Of a DNA stretch of 64,000 nt, positions 3,393-63,037 are shown in pieces; position 1 is the stretch's first letter; each line of letters starts with the position of its first letter. The notes under the pieces were generated by a model. The model did not search any database, was not told the origin of the DNA, and saw only the letters and a program-made list of their open reading frames with translations. The DNA comes from Marinobacter psychrophilus (lineage in GTDB: Bacteria > Pseudomonadota > Gammaproteobacteria > Pseudomonadales > Oleiphilaceae), in the NCBI RefSeq assembly GCF_001043175.1, contig NZ_CP011494.1, forward strand, positions 2,232,001 through 2,296,000. Direction: 5' to 3'. The translations under genes were made by a program, and so were the position numbers.

Positions 3393-4022
3393 TTAATCAG
3401 GGCTGGTAACCAAACTGTTTAGGCTAAAAGCCTTGTCAAGGGCCGCTTTGGCCGCTTCGGATTCGGATTTGCTGGCGAAAGGCCCACTAAATACCCGGGT
3501 CAGCCGGGTGTCGCCGCGGCTGAACTCTTGAAGATGTGAACTGTAGCCTTTTTCGCGGGCGCTATCACGCAAACGTCGGGCATTATCAGCATCACCAAAG
3601 CTGCCCAACTGAACAACCCAAGCGCCTTCCAGAGAGCGACTGAACTCTTCCTCGGTTTGCGGACCGGGCTCCGGCTGAGCCGGTGCCGGCTTAACCTCGG
3701 CCACCGGTGGCAGCGTAACAGTGTTGCTGGCCGTAGTCGGCGTTGCCGGCTCAGGCGTCACTTCTTCAATCAGCTTAAAGTCCCCAGACCCGCTGGCACG
3801 GTCCGCTGCGGCTGGCCCCGAAACGTTCTGATATTCCGGCATGGAGGTCTGCGGTGGTGGTTCGGTGCTCACTTCCGGAAATGGCGGTTCTTCGGGAATG
3901 TTTATCGAGGTGGAGTTGCGCCCGGAATGGGGCTCGTCAAAGATCATCGGCACAAAAATAACCGCTAGTGAAATCAGCACCAGGGCGCCGATGATCCTCT
4001 GTTTTAATCCGTCCACAATCAT
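3393..4022 (-). CDS. dedD: SPOR domain cell-division protein, DedD-like
   Basis: A 209-aa bitopic membrane protein. It has a short cytoplasmic start (MIVDGLKQR), one transmembrane helix (about residues 10-27), a Pro/Glu-rich periplasmic linker (about 30-125) and a C-terminal SPOR domain (about 130-205, WVVQLGSFGDADNARRLRD...). SPOR domains bind denuded glycan strands at the septum, and DedD supports septal peptidoglycan synthesis. Its ATG overlaps the folC stop by 4 nt (ATGA), so translation is probably coupled to folC. The order folC-dedD-cvpA-purF matches E. coli and Pseudomonas. Confidence 0.92.
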   Translation of the reverse strand: MIVDGLKQRIIGALVLISLAVIFVPMIFDEPHSGRNSTSINIPEEPPFPEVSTEPPPQTSMPEYQNVSGPAAADRASGSGDFKLIEEVTPEPATPTTASNTVTLPPVAEVKPAPAQPEPGPQTEEEFSRSLEGAWVVQLGSFGDADNARRLRDSAREKGYSSHLQEFSRGDTRLTRVFSGPFASKSESEAAKAALDKAFSLNSLVTSPD

Positions 4023-5356
4023 GCTCCCGGGTTGGTAACGGCGGCGTTTGGATACAAAAGGTTGCGGGCCGCCGCCACAGTAAAGAACGAACCAAACACA
4101 ATCACGATGTCGTTAGCACGGGCTTGGTCGCGGGCTTCAGCCAGGGCCTCCGGCACCGATTGCCAGTGACCTGCAGACTCAATACCGCACTGCTCGAACT
4201 GCGCATTCAGAGCCTCGGCGCTAAAGCCGCGGGGAGCTTCATTCACCAAGCCGGCCAGATACCAGCTGTGAACCACGCTGTCCATCGCTTTGGCAACGCC
4301 TTGCACGTCTTTATCCGCAAGCGCACCGTAGACCGCATGAATGCGGGTTTCCGGGTGTTGTAGCAGGCGCAACCGACTCGCCAGCCAGCAAGCCGCATGA
4401 GGGTTATGCCCCACATCCAGAATCACCAGCGGCGACGTGGCTACCTGTTCAAAACGCCCGGGCACAGACACTCCAGCCACGGCTCGCTCGATTTGTTGAA
4501 CACCCAGATTGGGCGCCAGGGTGCGCGATGCGACAACCGCTGCAGCCAGACTTTTTACCGGCAGGGCAAAATCTGGCAGGCGAAACTCTTCGTCTCCCAA
4601 CTCCAGATTCACCATCGCCGGCTGGCTTGAACACTGCACCAACTGATAATCACGGCCCAGCAACGCCAGGTCTACCTCCTGCGATAAAGCTTGCTGCAAT
4701 ACCGAACGCGGAGGATCAAAATCGGCGTAAACCGCAGGGATACCCCGTCGCAAAACTCCGGCTTTTTCAAAGCCGATTGACTCACGATCGTTACCCAAAA
4801 AGCTCGCATGATCGATGTCAATCGACGTAAGGATCACAAAATCCGCGTCTAACACGTTTACAGCATCCAGACGACCACCCAGACCAACCTCCAGAATCCA
4901 GTCATCTACATCAGCTTCGGACATGGCCACAAACGCAGCCAAAGTGCCAAATTCAAAATAGCTCAACGACACTTCTGCCCTGGCCGCCTGAACCCTTTCG
5001 AACCCGTAAATCATTTGCGCGTCTGAAATCTGCTCGCCCAGCAGACGTACGCGCTCGTTGTACACCTGAAGATGCGGCGACGTGTAGGCTGCCGTACGGC
5101 GCCCCGCTTCCTGCAACAGAGCTTCTAGGGCTGCGACCGTGCTGCCCTTGCCGTTGGTGCCAGCCACAGTAATAATGCGGGCCTTGGGCTTGGCCGGGAA
5201 CAGTCTTTGCAAAACCACCATCACTCGGTCCAGTCCCAGCTCGATTTCAACTGGGTGAATGGCCTCAAGGTAGCTCAACCATTGGCCTAGGCTGGCATCG
5301 GCGCCGGGGGCCGTTATTTTCGGCGCGTACTGATCCGGATTATGCGACTGAGGCAT
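4019..5356 (-). CDS. folC: bifunctional folylpolyglutamate / dihydrofolate synthase FolC
   Basis: Adds L-glutamate to dihydropteroate to make dihydrofolate, and extends the polyglutamate tail of folates. At 445 aa it is a little longer than E. coli FolC (422). The Mur-ligase ATP-binding loop [11 protein letters not shown] lies at about residues 63-73, followed by the central ligase domain ([17 protein letters not shown]) and a C-terminal domain with [11 protein letters not shown]. Its start region overlaps the accD 3' end by 17 nt and its stop overlaps the dedD start by 4 nt, which points to a tight accD-folC-dedD transcription unit. Confidence 0.97.
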
Positions 5357-6266
5357 CTTCGTCCGGCTTTTCAGTCACTTCAATTTCAATGGGTGCTTCG
5401 GTTTCAGGTTTTTCCAAATTGCCGAATTTTGCCAACAGGTGTGCAATTCGTTCTCGCATCTGGTGACGGTGCAGAATCATATCGATAGCGCCATGCTCTA
5501 ACAAAAACTCGCTGCGCTGGAATCCTTCGGGCAACTTTTCACGCACGGTCTGCTCAATCACCCGCGGCCCGGCAAAGCCGATCAGTGCGTTAGGTTCAGC
5601 GATGTTCAGGTCGCCCAACATCGCCAGGCTGGCCGACACGCCGCCGAATACCGGGTCGGTCATTACCGAAACATACGGCACGCCGTGTTGCTTCATACGC
5701 TCAAGAACAGCGGCGGTTTTGCACATCTGCATCAATGAGAGAATGGCCTCCTGCATACGCGCGCCGCCGCTGGCAGCGAAGCACACCAGAGGAATACGCT
5801 CTTCCAGCGCCACATTGGCCGCCCGTACAAATTTTTCCCCAACCGTCTGGCCCATAGAGCCACCCAGGAAATTGAACTCGAAGGCGCAAGCCACCAGTGG
5901 AAGCCCCATGGTAGTGCCCTTCATGGCCAACAAGGCATCTTTTTCGCCCGTCGCTTTCTGGGCTTGCGTCAAGCGGTCTTTATAACGCTTGGTGTCTTTG
6001 AACTTGAGGCGGTCCCAAGGTTCCAGATCTGCGCCAATGTCTTCACGGCCGTCTGCATCCAGAAAAATATCAAGACGGCGGCGGGCACCCACTCGCAAGT
6101 GATGATTACACTTCAGGCACACGTCCAGGTTTTTTTCCAACTCGGGCTTGTACAAAAAAGCACCACATTTCGGGCACTTTTTCCACAAACCTTCCGGAAC
6201 ACCGGTCCTCGTCTTGGATTCCGAGCGGATCTTGCTCGGCATTATTTTATCTAACCAACTACTCAT
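5340..6266 (-). CDS. accD: acetyl-CoA carboxylase carboxyltransferase subunit beta AccD
   Basis: The beta half of the carboxyltransferase that moves CO2 from biotin-BCCP to acetyl-CoA, the first committed step of fatty acid synthesis. It works as a heterotetramer with AccA, which is not in this window. At 308 aa the length is normal. The N-terminal zinc ribbon is clear (CPKC at residues 31-34, CLKC at 50-53), followed by the crotonase-like carboxyltransferase core with the oxyanion-hole glycines in [11 protein letters not shown]. The last 20 residues are acidic and poorly conserved. It starts at ATG 6266, with a 225-bp non-coding gap upstream that probably holds its promoter. Confidence 0.98.
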
Positions 6267-54639: not shown

Positions 54640-54753
54640 GTGGTGGCCCCACTAGCGACACTCCGGCACACATATCGACCGCTGCGGCTGCTCCCTTCCG
54701 GGTCTGACCGGGTTCACGGTTTCATGTTGCGAAGGCACCAATGGAGCCACCAT
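54640..54753 (-). ncRNA. ffs: 4.5S signal recognition particle RNA (small bacterial type)
   Basis: On the minus strand the domain IV hairpin is clear: GGTCAGACCCGGAAGGGAGCAGCC is split by me here into GGTCAGACCCGG and AAGGGAGCAGCC, which is the Ffh-binding loop with its symmetric and asymmetric internal loops. The 5' end GGTGGCTCC (near 54751) pairs with the 3' end GGGGCCACC (near 54642), closing a rod of about 110 nt. The ends are approximate. It lies upstream of dnaX on the same strand, as in E. coli relatives, with the poly-G tract just beyond its 3' end. Confidence 0.93.
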
Positions 54754-54918: not shown

Positions 54919-56994
54919 ATGTTTAACGATTTCAACGCCCTCAGCCACGCCGTTGCGTTTATCACTTACGGCCTACTGGCAATTCTGATTGCCGCCCGCT
55001 ACATGCGCCGCAATTCCGATCGAGCTCTGTTCTTTGCCGCGCTGGTATCCACCTTGTGGGCAGCAGCTCTGGTGACACAGTCCATCTGGGGATTCCCGGA
55101 TTTTGCCGTGCGTTACTTGCTGGAACTGCTGCGCGACGGCGCCTGGATCGCACTTATTTTCACCCTGCTAGGCAGCGCATTGCCAAACGACGGCACCGCA
55201 CGAAAAATTAAACAAATGTTGGCAGGCGCCGTTATTGGCGTGTTGGTGATACTGCTACTGGCGAGCGCCGCTGAACACTTTGACGTAAACCACATATTTT
55301 TCGGCAAAACAAAAATAGTAGGCCAGTTGGCGCTGTCGCTGATTGGCCTGCTACTGATCGAACAAATCTGGCGCAATTCCCTTGGCTTTCGTCGCTACAG
55401 CATCAAATACATGTGCACCGGCGTAGCCACCATCTTCATCTTCGATTTTGTGATGTACGCCGATGCCCTGCTGTTTGGCCAGATCAACCCGAACTTCTGG
55501 GACGCCCGCGGGCTCGCAAATGCACTGCTGGTGCCGCTGTTTGCGGTAAACGTGGTTAACACCCGCAGACAGCCCATAGACTTCCGGGTATCACGGCGTG
55601 CCGCCTTTCACGCGGGCACTCTGCTGTTCGCCGGCGCCTATCTGGTATTTCTGTCGGTTGCCGGCTACTACATCAAAACCGTGGGCGGCAGCTGGGGCGA
55701 CGCCCTACGCATTCTATTCTTCACCCTGGCACTGGTGTTTCTGGCTACCCTACTGCTTTCGCGCCGGCTGCGAGCCCGCATGATGGTTGCCATCAGCCAG
55801 AATTTTTTTGACTACAAATACGACTACCGCAATGAGTGGCTAAAAATGACCAAAGAGCTGGCCAACCTGACCGACTCGCCGCCCCTGCCGGAACGGGTTA
55901 TCCGCATTCTGGCAGACCTGGTAGAAGGCAACGCAGGCGCCATCTGGCTGCAAGACGACCAGAACCGCTATCAGTTAAAAGCCACCATCAACATGAACTT
56001 CGATCGTCACACCCTGATTGACCCCAATGACGACCTGGTGCGCTATTTCCGCGATAAAGAATGGATCATAGACCTGAACGTCTACAAAGCAGATCCGGTT
56101 GCCTATGACTTATTAGAAGTGCCAGACATTATCATCCAATGCCCTAGTGGCTGGCTGATCATCCCCCTTTACTCAGGCAACGAGCTGTATGGTATGGCAC
56201 TGATCGGCGCGCCCCTTACCCAGGTAGAACTGAATTGGGAGAACTTCGATCTAATCCGCGTGGTTGCCCGCCAAACCGGTAACCTGCTGGCCCAAGCCGA
56301 TGCCCAGAACGCACTCACGCGGGCCATGCAGTTTGAAGCCGTCAGCAAAGCGTCTGCCTTCATGCTGCACGATTTGAAAACCGTGATCGCGCAACTGTCC
56401 CTGCTGGTCAAAAACGCGCCAAGGCACCGCGACAACCCAGCATTTATTGATGACATGATTCAAACCGCCGACCACGTGGTGAACAAAATGTCGAACCTAG
56501 TCACCCACATCCAAAAGCCTCAGGACAGCCAGGGGCAAGCCGCAGAAATGATCAACCTGACAGACCTTCTCACTAGCGCCATATCCGACGCCAGCAGGCG
56601 CAACCCGCAACCGCATTTTGATTACCGAAACGGCGACGTGTGGATAAGGGCAGGCGCCGAACAACTGGGCACCGTAATAGGCCATTTGCTGCGCAACGCC
56701 CAGGACGCCACGCCGCGAGATGGCGACATAACCGTCACTTTAAAAGTCGCCCGCGGCACCGCCGTGGTATTTATTCAGGATTCCGGCAGCGGCATGACCG
56801 AAGAATTCATCCGCAACCGCCTGTTCAAGCCCTTCGAAAGCACCAAGGGGCTGACAGGCATGGGCATAGGGGTTTACCAAACCCGGGAATACTTACTGGA
56901 GCTTGGTGGAAGCATTGATGTCACCAGCGAGGCAGGCGTGGGTTCGTGCTTTTCAATGCGCCTGCCGCTGGCCGACGCCGCAACGTCAACTTAA
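54919..56994 (+). CDS. prsK: PEP-CTERM system histidine kinase PrsK
   Basis: A 691-aa membrane sensor kinase. About nine transmembrane helices make up residues 1-295, followed by a GAF-type domain (about 330-470), then a dimerisation/phosphoacceptor helix with His484 in MLHDLKTVIAQLSLLVKNAP and an ATPase domain (N box VIGHLLRNAQDATP, G1 box FIQDSGSGM, G2 box GLTGMGIGVYQTREYL). HDLK in place of the common HE is typical of the PrsK family. It is the first gene of prsK-prsR-prsT. In related bacteria this pair is tied to genes for PEP-CTERM proteins and exopolysaccharide. The signal sensed is unknown. Confidence 0.93.
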   Translation: MFNDFNALSHAVAFITYGLLAILIAARYMRRNSDRALFFAALVSTLWAAALVTQSIWGFPDFAVRYLLELLRDGAWIALIFTLLGSALPNDGTARKIKQMLAGAVIGVLVILLLASAAEHFDVNHIFFGKTKIVGQLALSLIGLLLIEQIWRNSLGFRRYSIKYMCTGVATIFIFDFVMYADALLFGQINPNFWDARGLANALLVPLFAVNVVNTRRQPIDFRVSRRAAFHAGTLLFAGAYLVFLSVAGYYIKTVGGSWGDALRILFFTLALVFLATLLLSRRLRARMMVAISQNFFDYKYDYRNEWLKMTKELANLTDSPPLPERVIRILADLVEGNAGAIWLQDDQNRYQLKATINMNFDRHTLIDPNDDLVRYFRDKEWIIDLNVYKADPVAYDLLEVPDIIIQCPSGWLIIPLYSGNELYGMALIGAPLTQVELNWENFDLIRVVARQTGNLLAQADAQNALTRAMQFEAVSKASAFMLHDLKTVIAQLSLLVKNAPRHRDNPAFIDDMIQTADHVVNKMSNLVTHIQKPQDSQGQAAEMINLTDLLTSAISDASRRNPQPHFDYRNGDVWIRAGAEQLGTVIGHLLRNAQDATPRDGDITVTLKVARGTAVVFIQDSGSGMTEEFIRNRLFKPFESTKGLTGMGIGVYQTREYLLELGGSIDVTSEAGVGSCFSMRLPLADAATST

Positions 56995-57162: not shown

Positions 57163-58542
57163 GTGACAAGACAATTACTGATTGTAGAGGACGACCCGGG
57201 TCTGCAAAGCCAGATGCGCTGGTGCTTCACTGACAACCTGCAAGTGTCTGTTGCCGCCGACCGCGAAACCGCCCTGGCCCTGCTGCGACGACTGGAACCT
57301 GAAGTGGTAACCCTGGACCTGGGCCTGCCTCCAGACCCAGGCGGAAGCACCGAAGGCTTCGCCCTGCTGGAAGACATACTGCGCCTGGCACCTATGACCA
57401 AAGTCATTGTAGTGACTGGCCGTGAAGAAAAAGAAAACGCCGTAAAAGCCATCGGCATGGGCGCCGCCGACTTCTACCAAAAACCGGTAGACGCCGACAT
57501 CCTCAGCTTTGTGGTTAACCGGGCGTTCCGCCTGGCCGAGCTGGAAAAAGAAAACCTCGAGCTGGCAAGCCGCGACAACACCAGCGTGAAAGGCATTATC
57601 GCAGCCAGCCCGCAAATGCTGGCGGTGTGCCGCACCCTGGAAAAAGTAGCGCCAACCGACATCACCACCCTGATCAACGGCGAAACCGGCACCGGCAAAG
57701 AAGTACTGGCCCGCGCCCTGCATGACCTTAGCCCGCGGGCGCACATGCCCTTCGCCGCCATTAACTGCGCGGCCATTCCAGATAACCTGCTGGAGAGCGA
57801 GTTGTTCGGCTATGAAAAAGGCGCATTCACCGGCGCCACTCAAAGCAAAAAAGGCAAAATTGAAAGCGCCAACGGCGGCACCCTGTTTCTAGATGAAATT
57901 GGCGACATGCCCATGGCGCTACAAGCCAAACTGCTGCGTTTCCTGCAGGAACGAGTGGTAGACCGAGTCGGGTCACTAAAACCCACGCCCGTAGACGTAC
58001 GCGTGGTGTGTGCTACCCACCGCAATGTCAACGAACTGATTCAGGAAGGCACCTTCCGCGAAGACCTTTACTACCGCATCAGCGAAATCACCCTGGATCT
58101 GCCCGCGGTGCGTGACCGCGACGGCGACGCCTTGGTCATCGCCCAATCACTGTTGAAAAGTCTGAGCAAACAACTAGACCGGCCCGGCCTGAGCTTCTGT
58201 GACGACGCCATAAGCGCCATTGAGACCTACCCCTGGCCCGGCAACGTGCGCGAAATGATCAACAAAATAAAACGCTCGGTGATTATGGCCGACGGCAAAC
58301 GCATCACTATAGATGATCTTCAGCTGCCCCTAAGCACAGACAACACAGACGCCAACGAAAGCCAACTGAACCTGCGCAAAGTACGAGAAAACGCCGAACG
58401 CGCTGCCATCGTTCAAGCCCTGCGCACCAGCAACTTCAACATGGCGCAAGCATCCCGACTTCTAGGGGTTACCCGCCCCACCCTGTACAACCTGACTGAC
58501 AAATACCGGATTAACACCTCAGTCGAGGCTGCGGAAAGCTAA
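57163..58542 (+). CDS. prsR: PEP-CTERM-box sigma-54 response regulator PrsR
   Basis: An NtrC-type regulator of 459 aa starting at GTG 57163 (AAGGA 12 nt upstream). The receiver domain (about 3-125) has Asp52 in [10 protein letters not shown] as the phosphoacceptor. The sigma-54 AAA+ domain has Walker [13 protein letters not shown] and the sigma-54 contact loop GAFTGA (in [11 protein letters not shown]), with Walker [14 protein letters not shown]. The C-terminal Fis-type helix-turn-helix reads [23 protein letters not shown]. It is phosphorylated, presumably by PrsK (168 bp upstream), and should act at the -24/-12 promoters seen at 61277 and 63111. Confidence 0.95.
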
Positions 58543-58697: not shown

Positions 58698-61127
58698 ATG
58701 TCGATAACAACACCAAAGAAAAAACTCCCACGGCTGATCCTGCTGGGCACTCTTATACTGCCCTTGCTGAGCGCCTGTAACAGCGGCCCGGATACCTCCG
58801 AAGCGCTGTCGCACCTGAGTCGCGCAGACACCTACGCCGAGCAGGGCCAGTTCCGCTCGGCTATTCTCGAAATCAAAAACGCTATCCAGACCGAGCCAGA
58901 CAACGTCAGCCACATTGCCCGGCTGGGCGAACTCTACTTGGAACTGGGCGCCAACAAACAGGCCGTTGAGCTGCTGGAGCCCTGGCTGAAAGACTACCCG
59001 CAAGCGGTGGCCCTGCCTTTGGCCCGGGCCTATGTGGAAGAACGCAAACACCTGTCTGCCATCGAAACCCTGGCACTGGCAAACCCCGAAAGCTCTGATG
59101 AAAAACTCGAAGCGTCCCTGATCGAAGCCAAAGCCATGCGCTTGTCTGGCGACGTAGACGGAGCAATCACCGCCTACCGAGACATTAGCGCCAATTACTC
59201 AACCAGCGTGGATGCGATAACCGGTCTAATAGAGACCCATATTCAACAAGGCAATGCCCGCACGGCGCTCGGGGCCGCCAACGATTGGTTGGCCAGCCAC
59301 GAAACCACGCCAGCCGTTCTCTATCTGAAAGGCCTGGCCCAATACCAGCTTGATGAACTGGAGCCCGCCACCGCCACACTCACCGACGCCGTTACCCAAA
59401 TGCCGGCATCCGACATATTCATGCCATTAAGAGGCAAGTTACTGTCGCTGTTGTCACGGGTGTTGACTGAACAGGGCAAAATCACCGAAGCCCAGGTATA
59501 CAGCCGCATCCTGGCCGAACAAACCGACTCAGGCTCCCGCGAACAGAGCAAAGCCGTTATCGCCGCCATTCAAGCTGGCAACTTTGACGAAGCCAAAACC
59601 ATGCTGCGGGACATGCGCAAGCTAGACCCCGACAACGAACAGCTGGCCTTAATGTTGGGCACCCTGTCTGCAGGTACCGGTGAATTGGAAGAAGGCGCCG
59701 AATTGCTGTCTGGAAATCTGGACCCGGAAACCACCCCAACCCGCTTTATTCGGGCCTCTACCATGGCCCAGATTGACGTGGGCGAACGGGAAGAAGCACT
59801 CGCCACTCTGGAACGTGCCGTAAAAGCCCGCCCCAACGACAACGATCTGCTGGCCATGCACGGCGTTCTGGCCCTGAGCATGCCCGGCCAGGAAGCCGCG
59901 GGCGTCACCAGTTTGAGCAAAGCCATTAGCAACGAACCCGATCGCACCCGTTTAAGGATTGCGCTGGCCCGGCACTACATCAATAACCAGCAAACCGAAC
60001 AGGCCTTGGGCCAATTGCGGATGGCGTTTACCGCCCAGCCAGCAGATTGGGCAAGCACAGCTATCTATTTAAGCCTGCTGATCGACAGCGGTGAAACCCG
60101 CGAAGCCGAAGACGTACGCGATTCGCTGGTCAATGGCTACGGCAACGAGCCTCAAGCGCTCCTGCTGGCGGCAATCGCCGACGGGCGCATGGGTAACTCC
60201 GACTTCGCTTTGATTCGCCTTGAGCAACTGACAGTAGACAACCCAGATATGCAGCAGGCGCGCCTGGCCCTGGCAAGCCTGTATGCCTCGACCAACAGCC
60301 CAGACAAAGCCGTTGAACAACTCCTGGCCGCCGCCGTTATAACCCCGGAGGTGATCGGACCGCTTCAGCAGGCCGGCCAGATTTACGCTACCACCCACAG
60401 CGTGGAAGAAGTTCAACAGTGGCTGGGCACCGTTGCTGAAACGCATCCGCCACTGGCACCAAACGCCAGCTTGTTGTCTGCGTTAATCCACATACAACAA
60501 AGCGATGTAAAACATGCACGAACGATTCTTGAGCCAATGGCCAACGAAGATAACCCCATCGGCTACAGAGCCTACGGACAGCTATTGGCCGCAGAATCTG
60601 TTATCAGCGCACAGGCCGAAGATTACTCAACGGCCCTGGCTAAAGCAGCAGAAGCCATTGCCATTCAGCCCGAAAACGTCGGCTTCGCACTGCTGCCTGC
60701 CCGCATACTCATCACTCAGGGTAAAAATGCTGAGGCGCTAGAAGCACTTCAAGCCGCCGCAGAAACCCACAACAACCACGTCGCCATTCTAATGGCCCAG
60801 GCCGACCTGCAAATGAACCAACAGCAGGATCAGGCAGCAACCGAGTTGTATGAACAAGTTGTGTTAACGCAGCCTAACAACGTGGTGGCGCTGAACAACC
60901 TGGCTTGGCTACTACGTGAAAAGAACAACAGCCGCGCCGTAGAACTCGCCAGCCGCGCCAGCGAGCTGGCGCCCGAAGCGCCAGACATACTCGACACCCA
61001 CGGATGGGTTCTGCACCTGGGCGGTAACCACGCAGAGGCCAAGCCCATCATTGAGAAGGCCTTGGCGCTAGCGCCAGACAACGCAGAAATTCAGGGACAC
61101 TTGAAAGCCATTAACGAGGCACTGTAA
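58698..61127 (+). CDS. prsT: PEP-CTERM system TPR lipoprotein PrsT
   Basis: An 809-aa predicted lipoprotein. The signal has the lipobox LLSAC with Cys27, followed by Asn, suggesting outer-membrane anchoring. The rest is a long array of TPR motifs, such as LSRADTYAEQGQFRSAILEIKNAIQ at the start, ending with ALAPDNAEIQGHLKAINEAL. PrsT proteins accompany prsK and prsR in species with the exosortase/PEP-CTERM system and are probably involved in exporting or assembling exopolysaccharide. It lies 155 bp after prsR; that gap is filled with three REP-like palindromes. It is followed by a strong terminator. Confidence 0.93.
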   Translation: MSITTPKKKLPRLILLGTLILPLLSACNSGPDTSEALSHLSRADTYAEQGQFRSAILEIKNAIQTEPDNVSHIARLGELYLELGANKQAVELLEPWLKDYPQAVALPLARAYVEERKHLSAIETLALANPESSDEKLEASLIEAKAMRLSGDVDGAITAYRDISANYSTSVDAITGLIETHIQQGNARTALGAANDWLASHETTPAVLYLKGLAQYQLDELEPATATLTDAVTQMPASDIFMPLRGKLLSLLSRVLTEQGKITEAQVYSRILAEQTDSGSREQSKAVIAAIQAGNFDEAKTMLRDMRKLDPDNEQLALMLGTLSAGTGELEEGAELLSGNLDPETTPTRFIRASTMAQIDVGEREEALATLERAVKARPNDNDLLAMHGVLALSMPGQEAAGVTSLSKAISNEPDRTRLRIALARHYINNQQTEQALGQLRMAFTAQPADWASTAIYLSLLIDSGETREAEDVRDSLVNGYGNEPQALLLAAIADGRMGNSDFALIRLEQLTVDNPDMQQARLALASLYASTNSPDKAVEQLLAAAVITPEVIGPLQQAGQIYATTHSVEEVQQWLGTVAETHPPLAPNASLLSALIHIQQSDVKHARTILEPMANEDNPIGYRAYGQLLAAESVISAQAEDYSTALAKAAEAIAIQPENVGFALLPARILITQGKNAEALEALQAAAETHNNHVAILMAQADLQMNQQQDQAATELYEQVVLTQPNNVVALNNLAWLLREKNNSRAVELASRASELAPEAPDILDTHGWVLHLGGNHAEAKPIIEKALALAPDNAEIQGHLKAINEAL

Positions 61128-61163
61128 AGCAACCTGACACTCCGCAGGTTAGCTAGCAAAACC

Positions 61164-61200
61164 AAAAAAGCCGCTGAACCCACTATTCAGCGGCTTTTTT
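61164..61200 (+). terminator. rho-independent terminator after prsT
   Basis: AAAAAAGCCGCTGAA pairs with TTCAGCGGCTTTTTT around a 7-nt loop, followed by T-run. It lies 37 bp past the prsT stop. A homologous copy (62824-62861) follows the prsT relic. Confidence 0.93.
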
Positions 61201-61276
61201 GATGCGAATGTCAGGTTTCTTTACAGGCACAAAATCAGAACGTAAAAAAACCTTTAATAAACAATGAATTTGAAAG

Positions 61277-61294
61277 TTGGCACAGTAATCGCTT
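61277..61294 (+). promoter_or_regulatory. sigma-54 (-24/-12) promoter of first PEP-CTERM gene
   Basis: TTGGCACAGTAATCGCTT: GG at 61279-61280 and GC at 61291-61292 are separated by exactly 10 nt, and TTGGCAC matches the -24 element. Transcription would begin near 61303, giving a leader of about 140 nt that contains the riboswitch. PrsR is the expected activator. Confidence 0.8.
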
Positions 61295-61321
61295 CATATT
61301 GCATAGGGAAAAGGCAAGAGC

Positions 61322-61405
61322 CTGACCAGAAGCCAAACCATTTGCGAAGATGGGACGGAAAGCCAAGGGTCTCAACAAGAAGAAGAGATAGCCTGGTTGC
61401 AAGGC
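61322..61405 (+). promoter_or_regulatory. class I cyclic di-GMP riboswitch (GEMM-I)
   Basis: The leader of the PEP-CTERM gene contains, in order, GCCAAACC, the hairpin CCATTT-GCGA-AGATGG (6 bp with a GNRA tetraloop), the conserved GGGACGGAAAGCC, a second hairpin (GTCTC / GAGAT) and TAGCCTGGTTGC. This is the architecture of GEMM-I RNAs such as Vc2. By my recollection of Vc2 numbering, the ligand-contact bases G20, A47 and C92 correspond to 61332, 61359 and 61400 and are conserved. The G21-C46 pair is C33-G58 here (61333 and 61358), a compensatory swap. No covariance model was run. Confidence 0.83.
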
Positions 61406-61445
61406 GAACTATACGGAATTAGAGCTAAACAACCGGAGAGCACCT

Positions 61446-62168
61446 ATGAAATTTAAAACAACTCTTTGCGTAGCAGCATTATGCTTGGCTTCAGCAGCAG
61501 CCCACGCGGTGCCAAGCTTGGGCACCATCCTTTCGAATGGCACCTACAATGGCGTCACTGATACTGGTCTCGAATCAGTTGTGCTGACAGACACTAGCAA
61601 CAACAACGATGATATTACGGCTTTTTTGTTTCTTGAACTGGCAGGATTCAGAAACAACAACAACTTTGGCATCTACAGTTTTTCCTATGATGGGTCCGGC
61701 AACGTGGTTGTTGGTGATACGCTTGAGCTGTTCTCAGGATCGCAAAGCCCGGGTACCGGCGGCTTCACCACAGATGCGACCGTGGAATTTGACTTGCTCG
61801 CAGGAACTGCCACCAACGCATCAACCAATGTTGTTGCCAACATCGGTAAAAACTTTGGTTTTTATCTGGCCAATACCGTTAACAATAACGGCTTTACCTG
61901 GTACAGCCACACCTCACTAAACTCGGACGGCTTTGACCATATGCTCATGTTTGATACGTCAAGCAACTCAGTGTCTGGCCTAAGCGGTAGCGATGTGGTT
62001 CTTGCCTTCGAAGATCTTTGCAATACCAACTGCAGCAACGATGGTGATTACAATGACATGGTCGTAGGCATCTCCGACGTAATCCCGGTCCCCGAGCCCG
62101 GCACCCTGGCCCTCCTCGGCCTTGGCCTTGCAGGACTTGGCGCAGCTCGCCGTCGTCAGAAAGCCTGA
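61446..62168 (+). CDS. PEP-CTERM sorting domain protein with DUF4114-like domain
   Basis: A 240-aa secreted protein. It has a signal peptide (about 1-22, SAAAHA-VPS), a middle part with a DUF4114-like ending (VLAFEDLCNTNCSNDGDYNDMVVGI, about 185-211), and the C-terminal PEP-CTERM sorting signal (VPEPGTLALLGLGLAGLGAA followed by RRRQKA). Such proteins are processed by the exosortase XrtA (not in the window) and are exported with the exopolysaccharide matrix. The start is ATG 61446, with the SD GGAGAG 5 nt upstream, at the end of the riboswitch-containing leader. Confidence 0.93.
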   Translation: MKFKTTLCVAALCLASAAAHAVPSLGTILSNGTYNGVTDTGLESVVLTDTSNNNDDITAFLFLELAGFRNNNNFGIYSFSYDGSGNVVVGDTLELFSGSQSPGTGGFTTDATVEFDLLAGTATNASTNVVANIGKNFGFYLANTVNNNGFTWYSHTSLNSDGFDHMLMFDTSSNSVSGLSGSDVVLAFEDLCNTNCSNDGDYNDMVVGISDVIPVPEPGTLALLGLGLAGLGAARRRQKA

Positions 62169-62186
62169 TTTCGGTTGAGTAGTAAG

Positions 62187-62212
62187 AAGCCAGCTTCGGC
62201 TGGCTTTTTTTA
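62187..62212 (+). terminator. terminator after first PEP-CTERM gene
   Basis: AAGCCAGC-TTCG-GCTGGCTT followed by a T-run, about 20 bp past the stop codon. Homologous terminators recur at 62641 and 63884. Confidence 0.88.
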
Positions 62213-62713: not shown

Positions 62714-62788
62714 CTTATCGAGCAGGCACTGGCGCCGGAAAGTGTGGAGATGCAGGAGCACCTGAATACTGTAAAGCAATCTATGTAA
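62714..62788 (+). pseudogene. relic of the 3' end of a second prsT
   Basis: A 24-codon frame ending in TAA encodes LIEQALAPESVEMQEHLN followed by TVKQSM. It aligns with the PrsT C-terminus IIEKALALAPDNAEIQGHLK followed by AINEAL. A hairpin terminator homologous to the prsT terminator follows (62824). There is no start codon or upstream gene; the REP-like palindrome copy 8 lies directly in front. It is probably left over from a duplication of the prsT 3' end. Confidence 0.75.
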
Positions 62789-62823
62789 AATTTTCTGACA
62801 CTACCTCAAAACGCCCCACTTAT

Positions 62824-62861: not shown

Positions 62862-63021
62862 ATGGCGTATCAGGTTTTTTTACACAGACCCAGGAAGCGG
62901 CTCGCACCAACGTAACCCCCCTAAGCATGATCAAACCAAGCTCCAGACAGGCCAGAGCCGGAAAGATCTCGTTTTACATGGCACAGCAAACCCCCATGGC
63001 CGCCTCAACACAAATACTGGT

Positions 63022-63037
63022 GTCGACATTTTATACA
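63022..63037 (+). promoter_or_regulatory. GTCGAC box (candidate PrsR site), copy B
   Basis: GTCGACATTTTATACA, identical to copy A at 62500 and again exactly 91 bp before the GG of the promoter (63113). Confidence 0.65.

Follow-up and report, generated by a model that had tools for sequence, protein, structure and literature searches.

A PEP-CTERM surface-protein gene of Marinobacter psychrophilus is preceded by a putative PrsR box, a sigma-54 promoter motif and a cyclic di-GMP-I (GEMM-I) riboswitch aptamer, and, at the level of sequence comparison, this dual-input anatomy is conserved in the genus. The leader probably receives two inputs, namely a PrsR/sigma-54 promoter and a c-di-GMP-sensing aptamer that would act on translation. 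The parts are known, and their conserved combination is new as far as we searched. The genome consists of a single contig of 3,998,597 bases. The analysed stretch of 64,000 bases (positions 2232001-2296000) is hereafter called the window, and coordinates refer to it unless otherwise indicated.

The leader, its aptamer and its putative promoter

The plus strand of the window carries, in this order, prsK, prsR, a prsT-like gene, a terminator-like repeat, the box, the sigma-54 motif, the aptamer, the PEP-CTERM gene and a terminator-like site. The first-pass annotation had invoked PrsK and PrsR, and their genes were confirmed: prsK (54919-56994), encoding the histidine kinase of the PEP-CTERM system, scored 660 bits with NCBIfam TIGR02916 (cut-off 300), and prsR (57163-58542), encoding the sigma-54-interacting response regulator, scored 669 bits with TIGR02915 (cut-off 502.6). 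The third gene (58698-61127) encodes a PrsT-like TPR protein, which scored 277 bits with the PrsT profile TIGR02917 and thus did not reach its cut-off of 312.2. Downstream of this gene lies an inverted repeat with flanking A and T runs (61164-61200), which was read from the sequence as a likely terminator and is absent from the list generated by a terminator scan of the window. This repeat likely separates the leader from the prs genes.

The PEP-CTERM gene itself (61446-62168) encodes a protein of 240 amino acids with a PEP-CTERM tail (Pfam PF07589, 31.9 bits, cut-off 20.7) and a DUF4114 domain (Pfam, 31.8 bits, cut-off 27), and the terminator scan identified an intrinsic-terminator-like site 3' of the gene (62184-62209). 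The exosortase encoded in the genome exceeds the cut-off of NCBIfam TIGR02602 (107.0 versus 105.55) and falls below that of the XrtA model (149.1 versus 208). With both the tail and a genomic exosortase over their cut-offs, the product was classed as an exosortase substrate. The genome contains 44 GGDEF matches, 43 of which are over the cut-off. A bacterial small SRP RNA is also present in the window, on the minus strand at 54647-54743 (Rfam, 71.8 bits).

The search with the Rfam GEMM covariance model that the first-pass annotation had proposed yielded a match to RF01051 at 61322-61404 on the plus strand (cmscan, 56.6 bits, gathering score 35, E-value 2.1e-8 over both strands of the window), in which all 87 model positions are covered. 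Every part of the GEMM-I layout named in that annotation is present, i.e. GCCAAACC (61332-61339), a six-pair hairpin with a GCGA loop (61338-61353), GGGACGGAAAGCC, a second hairpin and TAGCCTGGTTGC. The ligand-contact bases in Vc2 numbering, which we take to be G20 at 61332, A47 at 61359 and C92 at 61400 from their placement through the Rfam alignment, are kept as had been claimed. C21-C22 (61333-61334) have G46-G45 (61358-61357) as partners, such that the pair 21-46 is C61333-G61358, swapped relative to the family consensus. The assignment to the c-di-GMP-I clan stood in that the RF01051 threshold is exceeded. However, RF03167 (c-di-GMP-I-GGC; 54.3 bits at 61323-61405, E-value 2e-12 on a 251-base stretch) ranks above RF01051 by E-value for this RNA, so we infer the ligand from the pocket: because G20, A47 and C92 are kept, c-di-GMP is the likely ligand.

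RF01051 was detected in 41 of the 124 Marinobacter genomes (48 matches under strict filters). All 48 matches were examined; 39, in 38 genomes, have the C21 form (GCCAAAC), and nine have the other form. Across the 39 aligned leaders of the swapped form, the two-hairpin fold is supported by covariation: 95.0% of the cells in the aptamer helices are paired, and 10 of the 20 aptamer pairs change on both sides, whereas the shuffled mean is 3.6 and none of 500 shuffles was as high. This signal falls sharply when the pairing register is slid. Only the pair 65-85 of the aligned leader is poorly kept, being formed in 13 of the 39. G20, C21, C22, G46, A47 and C92 are each found in all 39 leaders, of which only G46, A47 and C92 are free observations, as the first three belonged to the string used for row selection. 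The pair 21-46 is C-G in 39 of 39 and hence invariant within the genus set; its covariation is relative to the family consensus.

A tetraloop receptor in the second hairpin is not universal among c-di-GMP-I riboswitches. Using a rough pattern, we found no GAAA-loop receptor in the window leader or in any of the 39 swapped genus leaders, and the same pattern found none in 119 of the 122 judgeable swapped sequences among the world-wide matches listed. By comparison, three of the nine standard-type genus copies lack the receptor by this pattern. A P1 helix was considered and rejected, since shuffled sequences pair just as well between the 12 nt preceding G20 and the 14 nt following C92 (mean z -0.18; 3 of 39 below 0.05). 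A predicted hairpin, AGGC-AAGA-GCCT (61312-61323), lies just 5' of the aptamer core. Hairpins recur here with differing sequences in many of the 39 leaders, in the position that the paired ends of classical GEMM-I RNAs would occupy, and they beat shuffles (mean z -2.1; 21 of 39 below 0.05, the rows being related).

The sigma-54 promoter that had been postulated ahead of the leader corresponds to a -24/-12 motif without mismatch, TTGGCACAGTAATCGCT, at 61277-61293. With one mismatch allowed, the window contains five matches against 2.5 expected, which makes the motif weak if taken alone. From the -12 position, the transcript start is predicted near 61304-61307. Upstream of the motif lies a putative PrsR box, TGTCAGGTTTCTTTACA (61209-61225), which resembles TGTCRA-N5-TTTACA; with up to one mismatch, this pattern has four matches in the window against 0.27 expected, all between 61123 and 63037. 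The genus comparison strengthened the claim of a dual-input layout. The strict sigma-54 motif is present in 33 of the 39 swapped-aptamer leaders versus none of the nine other genus aptamers, and shuffled leaders reach it in 0.6% of cases. The box, within 170 nt and with up to two mismatches, is present in all 39 swapped leaders (no mismatch in 17, one in 19 and two in 3) versus none of the nine others and 1.9% of shuffled leaders; its pattern was derived from these leaders, and the fair evidence therefore comes from the nine control aptamers, the shuffled leaders, the fixed spacing, the occurrence in other genera and the number of matches in the window. Of the 33 leaders that have both elements, 29 keep box and promoter 67-69 nt apart; in the rest the distance is 65, 77 and twice 131 nt. 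With its -24/-12 motif and a conserved site upstream, the gene was counted among those putatively controlled by PrsK/PrsR. Further box-like sites lie by PEP-CTERM genes at 61123-61139 (minus strand), 62784-62800 (minus strand) and 63021-63037 (plus strand); after the last of these come a sigma-54-like motif, approximately 90 nt on, and the second PEP-CTERM gene (63229).

Distribution in Marinobacter and beyond

The swapped form of the aptamer is closely linked to PEP-CTERM genes within the genus. By the strict pattern, the next open reading frame ends in a PEP-CTERM tail in 35 of the 39 cases; in two it has an AEP variant (L013 and L036), and in the remaining two the tail is broken or truncated (L035 and L052). 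A PEP-CTERM-type tail therefore follows 37 of the 39 swapped aptamers and none of the nine other genus aptamers. When 36 of the 39 aptamers were used to build a covariance model, this model detected no further copies of the swapped type in the genus; apart from the swapped aptamers it matched only two copies of the standard type, both found before. Under strict filters, 86 of the 124 genus genomes have no match of the swapped kind. PrsR is above its cut-off in 115 of the 124, indicating that the aptamer is rarer than the phosphorelay.

The genome of M. psychrophilus has four RF01051 matches. Two of them, at approximately 452 kb, stand ahead of paralogous genes; the others are the window aptamer and a fourth match at contig position 2299354 (L006:11356-11434), approximately 3.4 kb past the window end, which is below threshold (31 bits). 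The last one has the same swapped pair and ends 21 nt before another PEP-CTERM gene. In its leader the strict sigma-54 motif is absent, but a sigma-54-like motif is recognised by a looser pattern, together with a one-mismatch box. An exosortase gene (L006:12139-13587) comes next after this PEP-CTERM gene. Going by position, an aptamer belongs to two of the genome's eight PF07589 matches; leaders were obtained for six of the eight, L174 and L176 being left out. Locus L005 contains GEMM-I-like matches at 3876-3964 (28.8 bits, below threshold), 5045-5133 (76.3 bits) and 5874-5962 (68.3 bits) in an array of similar genes with putative exported products. In the third aptamer of this locus, position 20 is A and the 22-45 pair is broken, and this aptamer may be decayed or altered in specificity.

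Outside the genus, the swapped pair is not a mark of PEP-CTERM control. Species-representative genomes contain the swapped core, GCCAAACC-N9-18-GGGACGGAAAGCC, in no fewer than 116 stretches (at least 123 matches), before genes of many kinds. The swap noted in the first-pass annotation is thus real, although it defines a widespread subtype. Among the 123 world-wide matches listed, 112 lack a PEP-CTERM tail under the strict pattern (12 of the 123 are situated no more than 700 nt from a locus end), and 11 precede such tails: five in Marinobacter, one each in Glaciecola, an Oleiphilus MAG, a gammaproteobacterial MAG and a deltaproteobacterial MAG, and two in Desulfobacula. The sigma-54 motif and the box occur together in seven of these 11 versus one of the 112 others listed. 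Four of the seven are Marinobacter cases already included in the genus count; the other three show the trio of aptamer, sigma-54 motif and box before PEP-CTERM genes in Glaciecola, the Oleiphilus MAG and the gammaproteobacterial MAG. Neither the motif nor the box was found in the Desulfobacula and deltaproteobacterial cases.

In a sample of the class, 67 of 369 genomes, including that of M. psychrophilus, contained matches. None of the 115 matches outside the own genome precedes a strict PEP-CTERM tail, a few stretches being cut by contig ends. The strict pattern misses related signals of the VPLPA and PEA types, and 17 of the 115 matches were read by eye; three have such tails, one of them over the NCBIfam cut-off. 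A broader tail pattern adds five cases world-wide, four of which resemble exosortase signals (L093, L100, L150 and L168), and only L150 passes the NCBIfam PEP-CTERM cut-off. Judging from the world-wide and class-sample counts, the pairing of aptamer and PEP-CTERM gene appears to recur and, among the genomes sampled, to be common only in Marinobacter. GEMM-I aptamers, most of them of the swapped type, precede proteins with VPLPA- or PEA-like C-terminal signals in seven loci of other lineages (L286, L294, L302, L093, L100, L150 and L168), two of which are over the cut-off, and this suggests a wider link with exosortase substrates. Cores of the swapped type also occur in tandem: four by pattern and three by Rfam in Desulfosudis (L085:7167-7512), and three by either approach in a Desulfobulbaceae MAG (L082:5818-6298), with the array members assigned to RF01051, RF03167 or RF03168.

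Mode of control and competing interpretations

A terminator scan found no terminator between the aptamer and the start codon, making translation the probable level of control. In minimum-energy folds, CTGGTTG (61393-61399), the 3' strand of P3 together with the base before C92, pairs either within the aptamer or with CAACCGG (61430-61436), a candidate switching strand that overlaps the Shine-Dalgarno sequence (GGAG, 61435-61438). In the predicted free state, CUGGUUG is paired with CAACCGG at the Shine-Dalgarno sequence. Forcing the aptamer to form costs approximately 3.1 kcal/mol, an amount that a tightly binding ligand could supply; the probability that the 9-nt Shine-Dalgarno region is unpaired then climbs from 0.20 to 0.57, whereas the four core bases barely move (from 0.41 to 0.45). 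Of 38 leaders, only eight show an opening of this 9-nt region that exceeds 0.2, and none shows an equally large change in the opposite direction; the four core bases rise by more than 0.2 in three and fall in two, with equal means.

Covariation of this helix is not above that of shuffles, of which 185 of 500 were as high by percent paired and 87 of 500 by covariation score. The folds of the leader and of the platform stretch are only slightly better than those of shuffled sequences, of which 24 and 13 of 200, respectively, did as well. CAACC is missing in 16 of the 39 leaders. The 3' strand GGUUGC is found in 22 leaders with CAACC and four without it, and other 3' strands in one with and 12 without, an association that comes mostly from one group of relatives. 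Compared with shuffled leaders, the duplex energies of the 23 leaders with CAACC have a mean z of -1.3, with two below 0.05 and a combined p of 3e-6 that would be valid only for independent rows, which these are not; none of the 16 leaders without CAACC is below 0.05. The folds suggest the helix 61393-61399/61430-61436 as the platform, as a hypothesis only, and we give a translational ON switch an even chance. A similar principle operates in the pilM riboswitch, where, according to the accessible text of the report, a terminator strand captures the ligand-pairing C (PMC9262584).

The sequence of events in the preferred two-input reading would be as follows. Phosphorylated PrsR on the box at 61209-61225 would activate the sigma-54 promoter at 61277-61293, a step suggested by the conservation of the motif, the neighbouring prsK and prsR and published work on PEP-CTERM systems. 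The transcript, starting at approximately 61304, would carry a receptor-less GEMM-I aptamer with C21-G46 at 61332-61400, which most likely binds c-di-GMP. Without ligand, the P3 3' strand (61393-61399) would pair with 61430-61436 and cover part of the Shine-Dalgarno sequence; ligand would lock P3, free the Shine-Dalgarno sequence and turn expression on, such that the PEP-CTERM gene would be expressed only with PrsK/PrsR active and c-di-GMP high. A more far-reaching proposal, which we regard as possible but somewhat doubtful, is that in Marinobacter and a few gammaproteobacteria a receptor-less, P1-less aptamer placed between a PrsR-dependent promoter and the Shine-Dalgarno sequence forms an AND gate in which the ligand-contact strand blocks the ribosome, the subtype having been recruited repeatedly to exosortase substrates in several lineages.

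The same anatomy could serve as an OFF switch, with c-di-GMP binding repressing the gene through another platform. The lack of covariation in the proposed ON helix and the absence of its strand from 16 leaders fit such an arrangement, and cyclic-dinucleotide riboswitches of both the ON and the OFF kind are described in the accessible text of PMC9262584. Nevertheless, we consider it unlikely, since no terminator was found between the aptamer and the start, the 9-nt region opens in the ON direction wherever it changes by more than 0.2, and a rise of matrix proteins with c-di-GMP is the general expectation. The better E-value of RF03167 could instead mean that the RNA belongs to a variant class sensing another molecule. 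RF03167 came first not only for the window RNA but also in all 20 swapped genus loci compared (of 39; three over its threshold) and in all eight swapped world-wide loci compared (of at least 116; three over its threshold). However, the window RNA stays below the RF03167 threshold of 59 bits and has A61359 at position 47, as all 39 leaders have A there, whereas the RF03167 consensus has G at this position, to which the variant name GGC presumably refers. Moreover, the short second hairpin of RF03167, which has no receptor stem, fits this RNA for reasons unrelated to the ligand, and a single tandem array is divided among RF01051, RF03167 and RF03168; a variant class is accordingly improbable.

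The least probable of the readings is a sensor of 3',3'-cGAMP, as the window RNA has G61332 at position 20, where GEMM-Ib RNAs of the cGAMP type carry A. The fold class is nevertheless the same, and the accessible text of PMC8835794 reports cGAMP binding by GEMM-I RNAs of Geobacter. It is also conceivable, though very improbable, that the leader is a relic or a structural element without regulatory effect. The 86 genus genomes without a swapped match and the related PEP-CTERM genes that do without an aptamer point in this direction, and there is a precedent in Vc1, as the accessible text of PMC4545359 describes a c-di-GMP effect on gbpA that is independent of Vc1. Against this, helices that covary and pocket bases that never change in the 39 leaders suggest that the fold is under selection.

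Known systems and relatives without the aptamer

Known GEMM-I RNAs offer two structural comparisons. The window aptamer resembles RF01051 and Vc2 of Vibrio cholerae in its two hairpins, GNRA loop, G20, A47 and C92 and in its score over the family threshold, but differs in the C-G pair at 21-46, in that no GAAA receptor was seen and in a P1 no better than shuffles. With RF03167 it shares the short second hairpin without receptor stem and the lower E-value, and it departs from that family in its sub-threshold score and in A instead of G at 47.

Riboswitches near PEP-CTERM genes have been described in M. nitratireducenticrescens GP59, a strain that we take to belong to the genus Methylophaga. According to the accessible text, its c-di-GMP riboswitches 4-7 adjoin three genes of the PEP-CTERM type and one of the VPLPA-CTERM type, close to exopolysaccharide genes; three of the four show higher transcript levels in biofilm, and that text describes no test of switching (PMC12530212). 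The likeness to the window lies at the level of description, c-di-GMP riboswitches adjoining PEP-CTERM genes. The first-pass annotation did not recall the combination being described; this has to be narrowed, since the riboswitch beside PEP-CTERM genes is already in that report, whereas the words sigma, PrsK and PrsR are absent from its main text. For the promoter half, the accessible text of Haft 2006 reports that 99 of 167 proteobacterial PEP-CTERM genes have the sigma-54 site upstream, and it gives PrsK, PrsR and PrsT their names (PMC1569441); RpoN dependence of pepA of Aquincola, with primer extension, is shown in the accessible text of PMC9850573. The window shares with these systems a sigma-54 motif after a cis site, the genes prsK and prsR and a prsT-like gene, but the word riboswitch appears in neither main text (PMC1569441, PMC9850573). 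In gbpA of V. cholerae, a regulated promoter and a GEMM-I leader likewise lie on one gene; the promoter there is governed by cAMP-CRP and not by PrsR/sigma-54, and, in the text cited above, Vc1 is not needed for the c-di-GMP effect (PMC4545359). In the open literature, from which subscription papers are largely excluded, we found no text joining a riboswitch, sigma-54/PrsK/PrsR and PEP-CTERM.

Haft 2006 called the PrsK stimulus obscure and expected further regulators, according to its accessible text (PMC1569441). The PrsK signal and the tie of PEP-CTERM to biofilm decisions are the context in which a leader riboswitch would matter, as it would link c-di-GMP directly to an exosortase-sorted matrix protein, with the inputs split between promoter and mRNA.

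Relatives of the window gene that lack the aptamer resemble the plain PrsK/PrsR/sigma-54 form. Eleven of 30 related loci lie in genomes without an RF01051 match; all 11 leaders were examined, and an aptamer was seen in none. A looser sigma-54-like motif is present in nine of them, 59-82 nt before the assigned start, compared with 169 nt in the window gene. Four of the nine, two of which are near-identical, have a box at close to the customary distance (66-67 nt); in five more, a weak box-like match, in most cases with two mismatches, is found approximately 190-240 nt before the motif. The simplest history compatible with these sequences would be that the aptamer was gained between the promoter and the ribosome site, or lost in the others. 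Genes with a sigma-54-like promoter that have or lack the aptamer offer a natural comparison within the genus. In M. psychrophilus itself, a box and a sigma-54-like motif but no aptamer precede the PEP-CTERM gene at contig position 2344762. Just past the window, a group II intron with a reverse transcriptase/maturase lies between two PEP-CTERM genes (L006:9258-11009), and an open frame of 28 codons that is nearly all PEP-CTERM tail (contig positions 2296610-2296690, approximately 64610 in window numbering) is perhaps the remnant of a gene.
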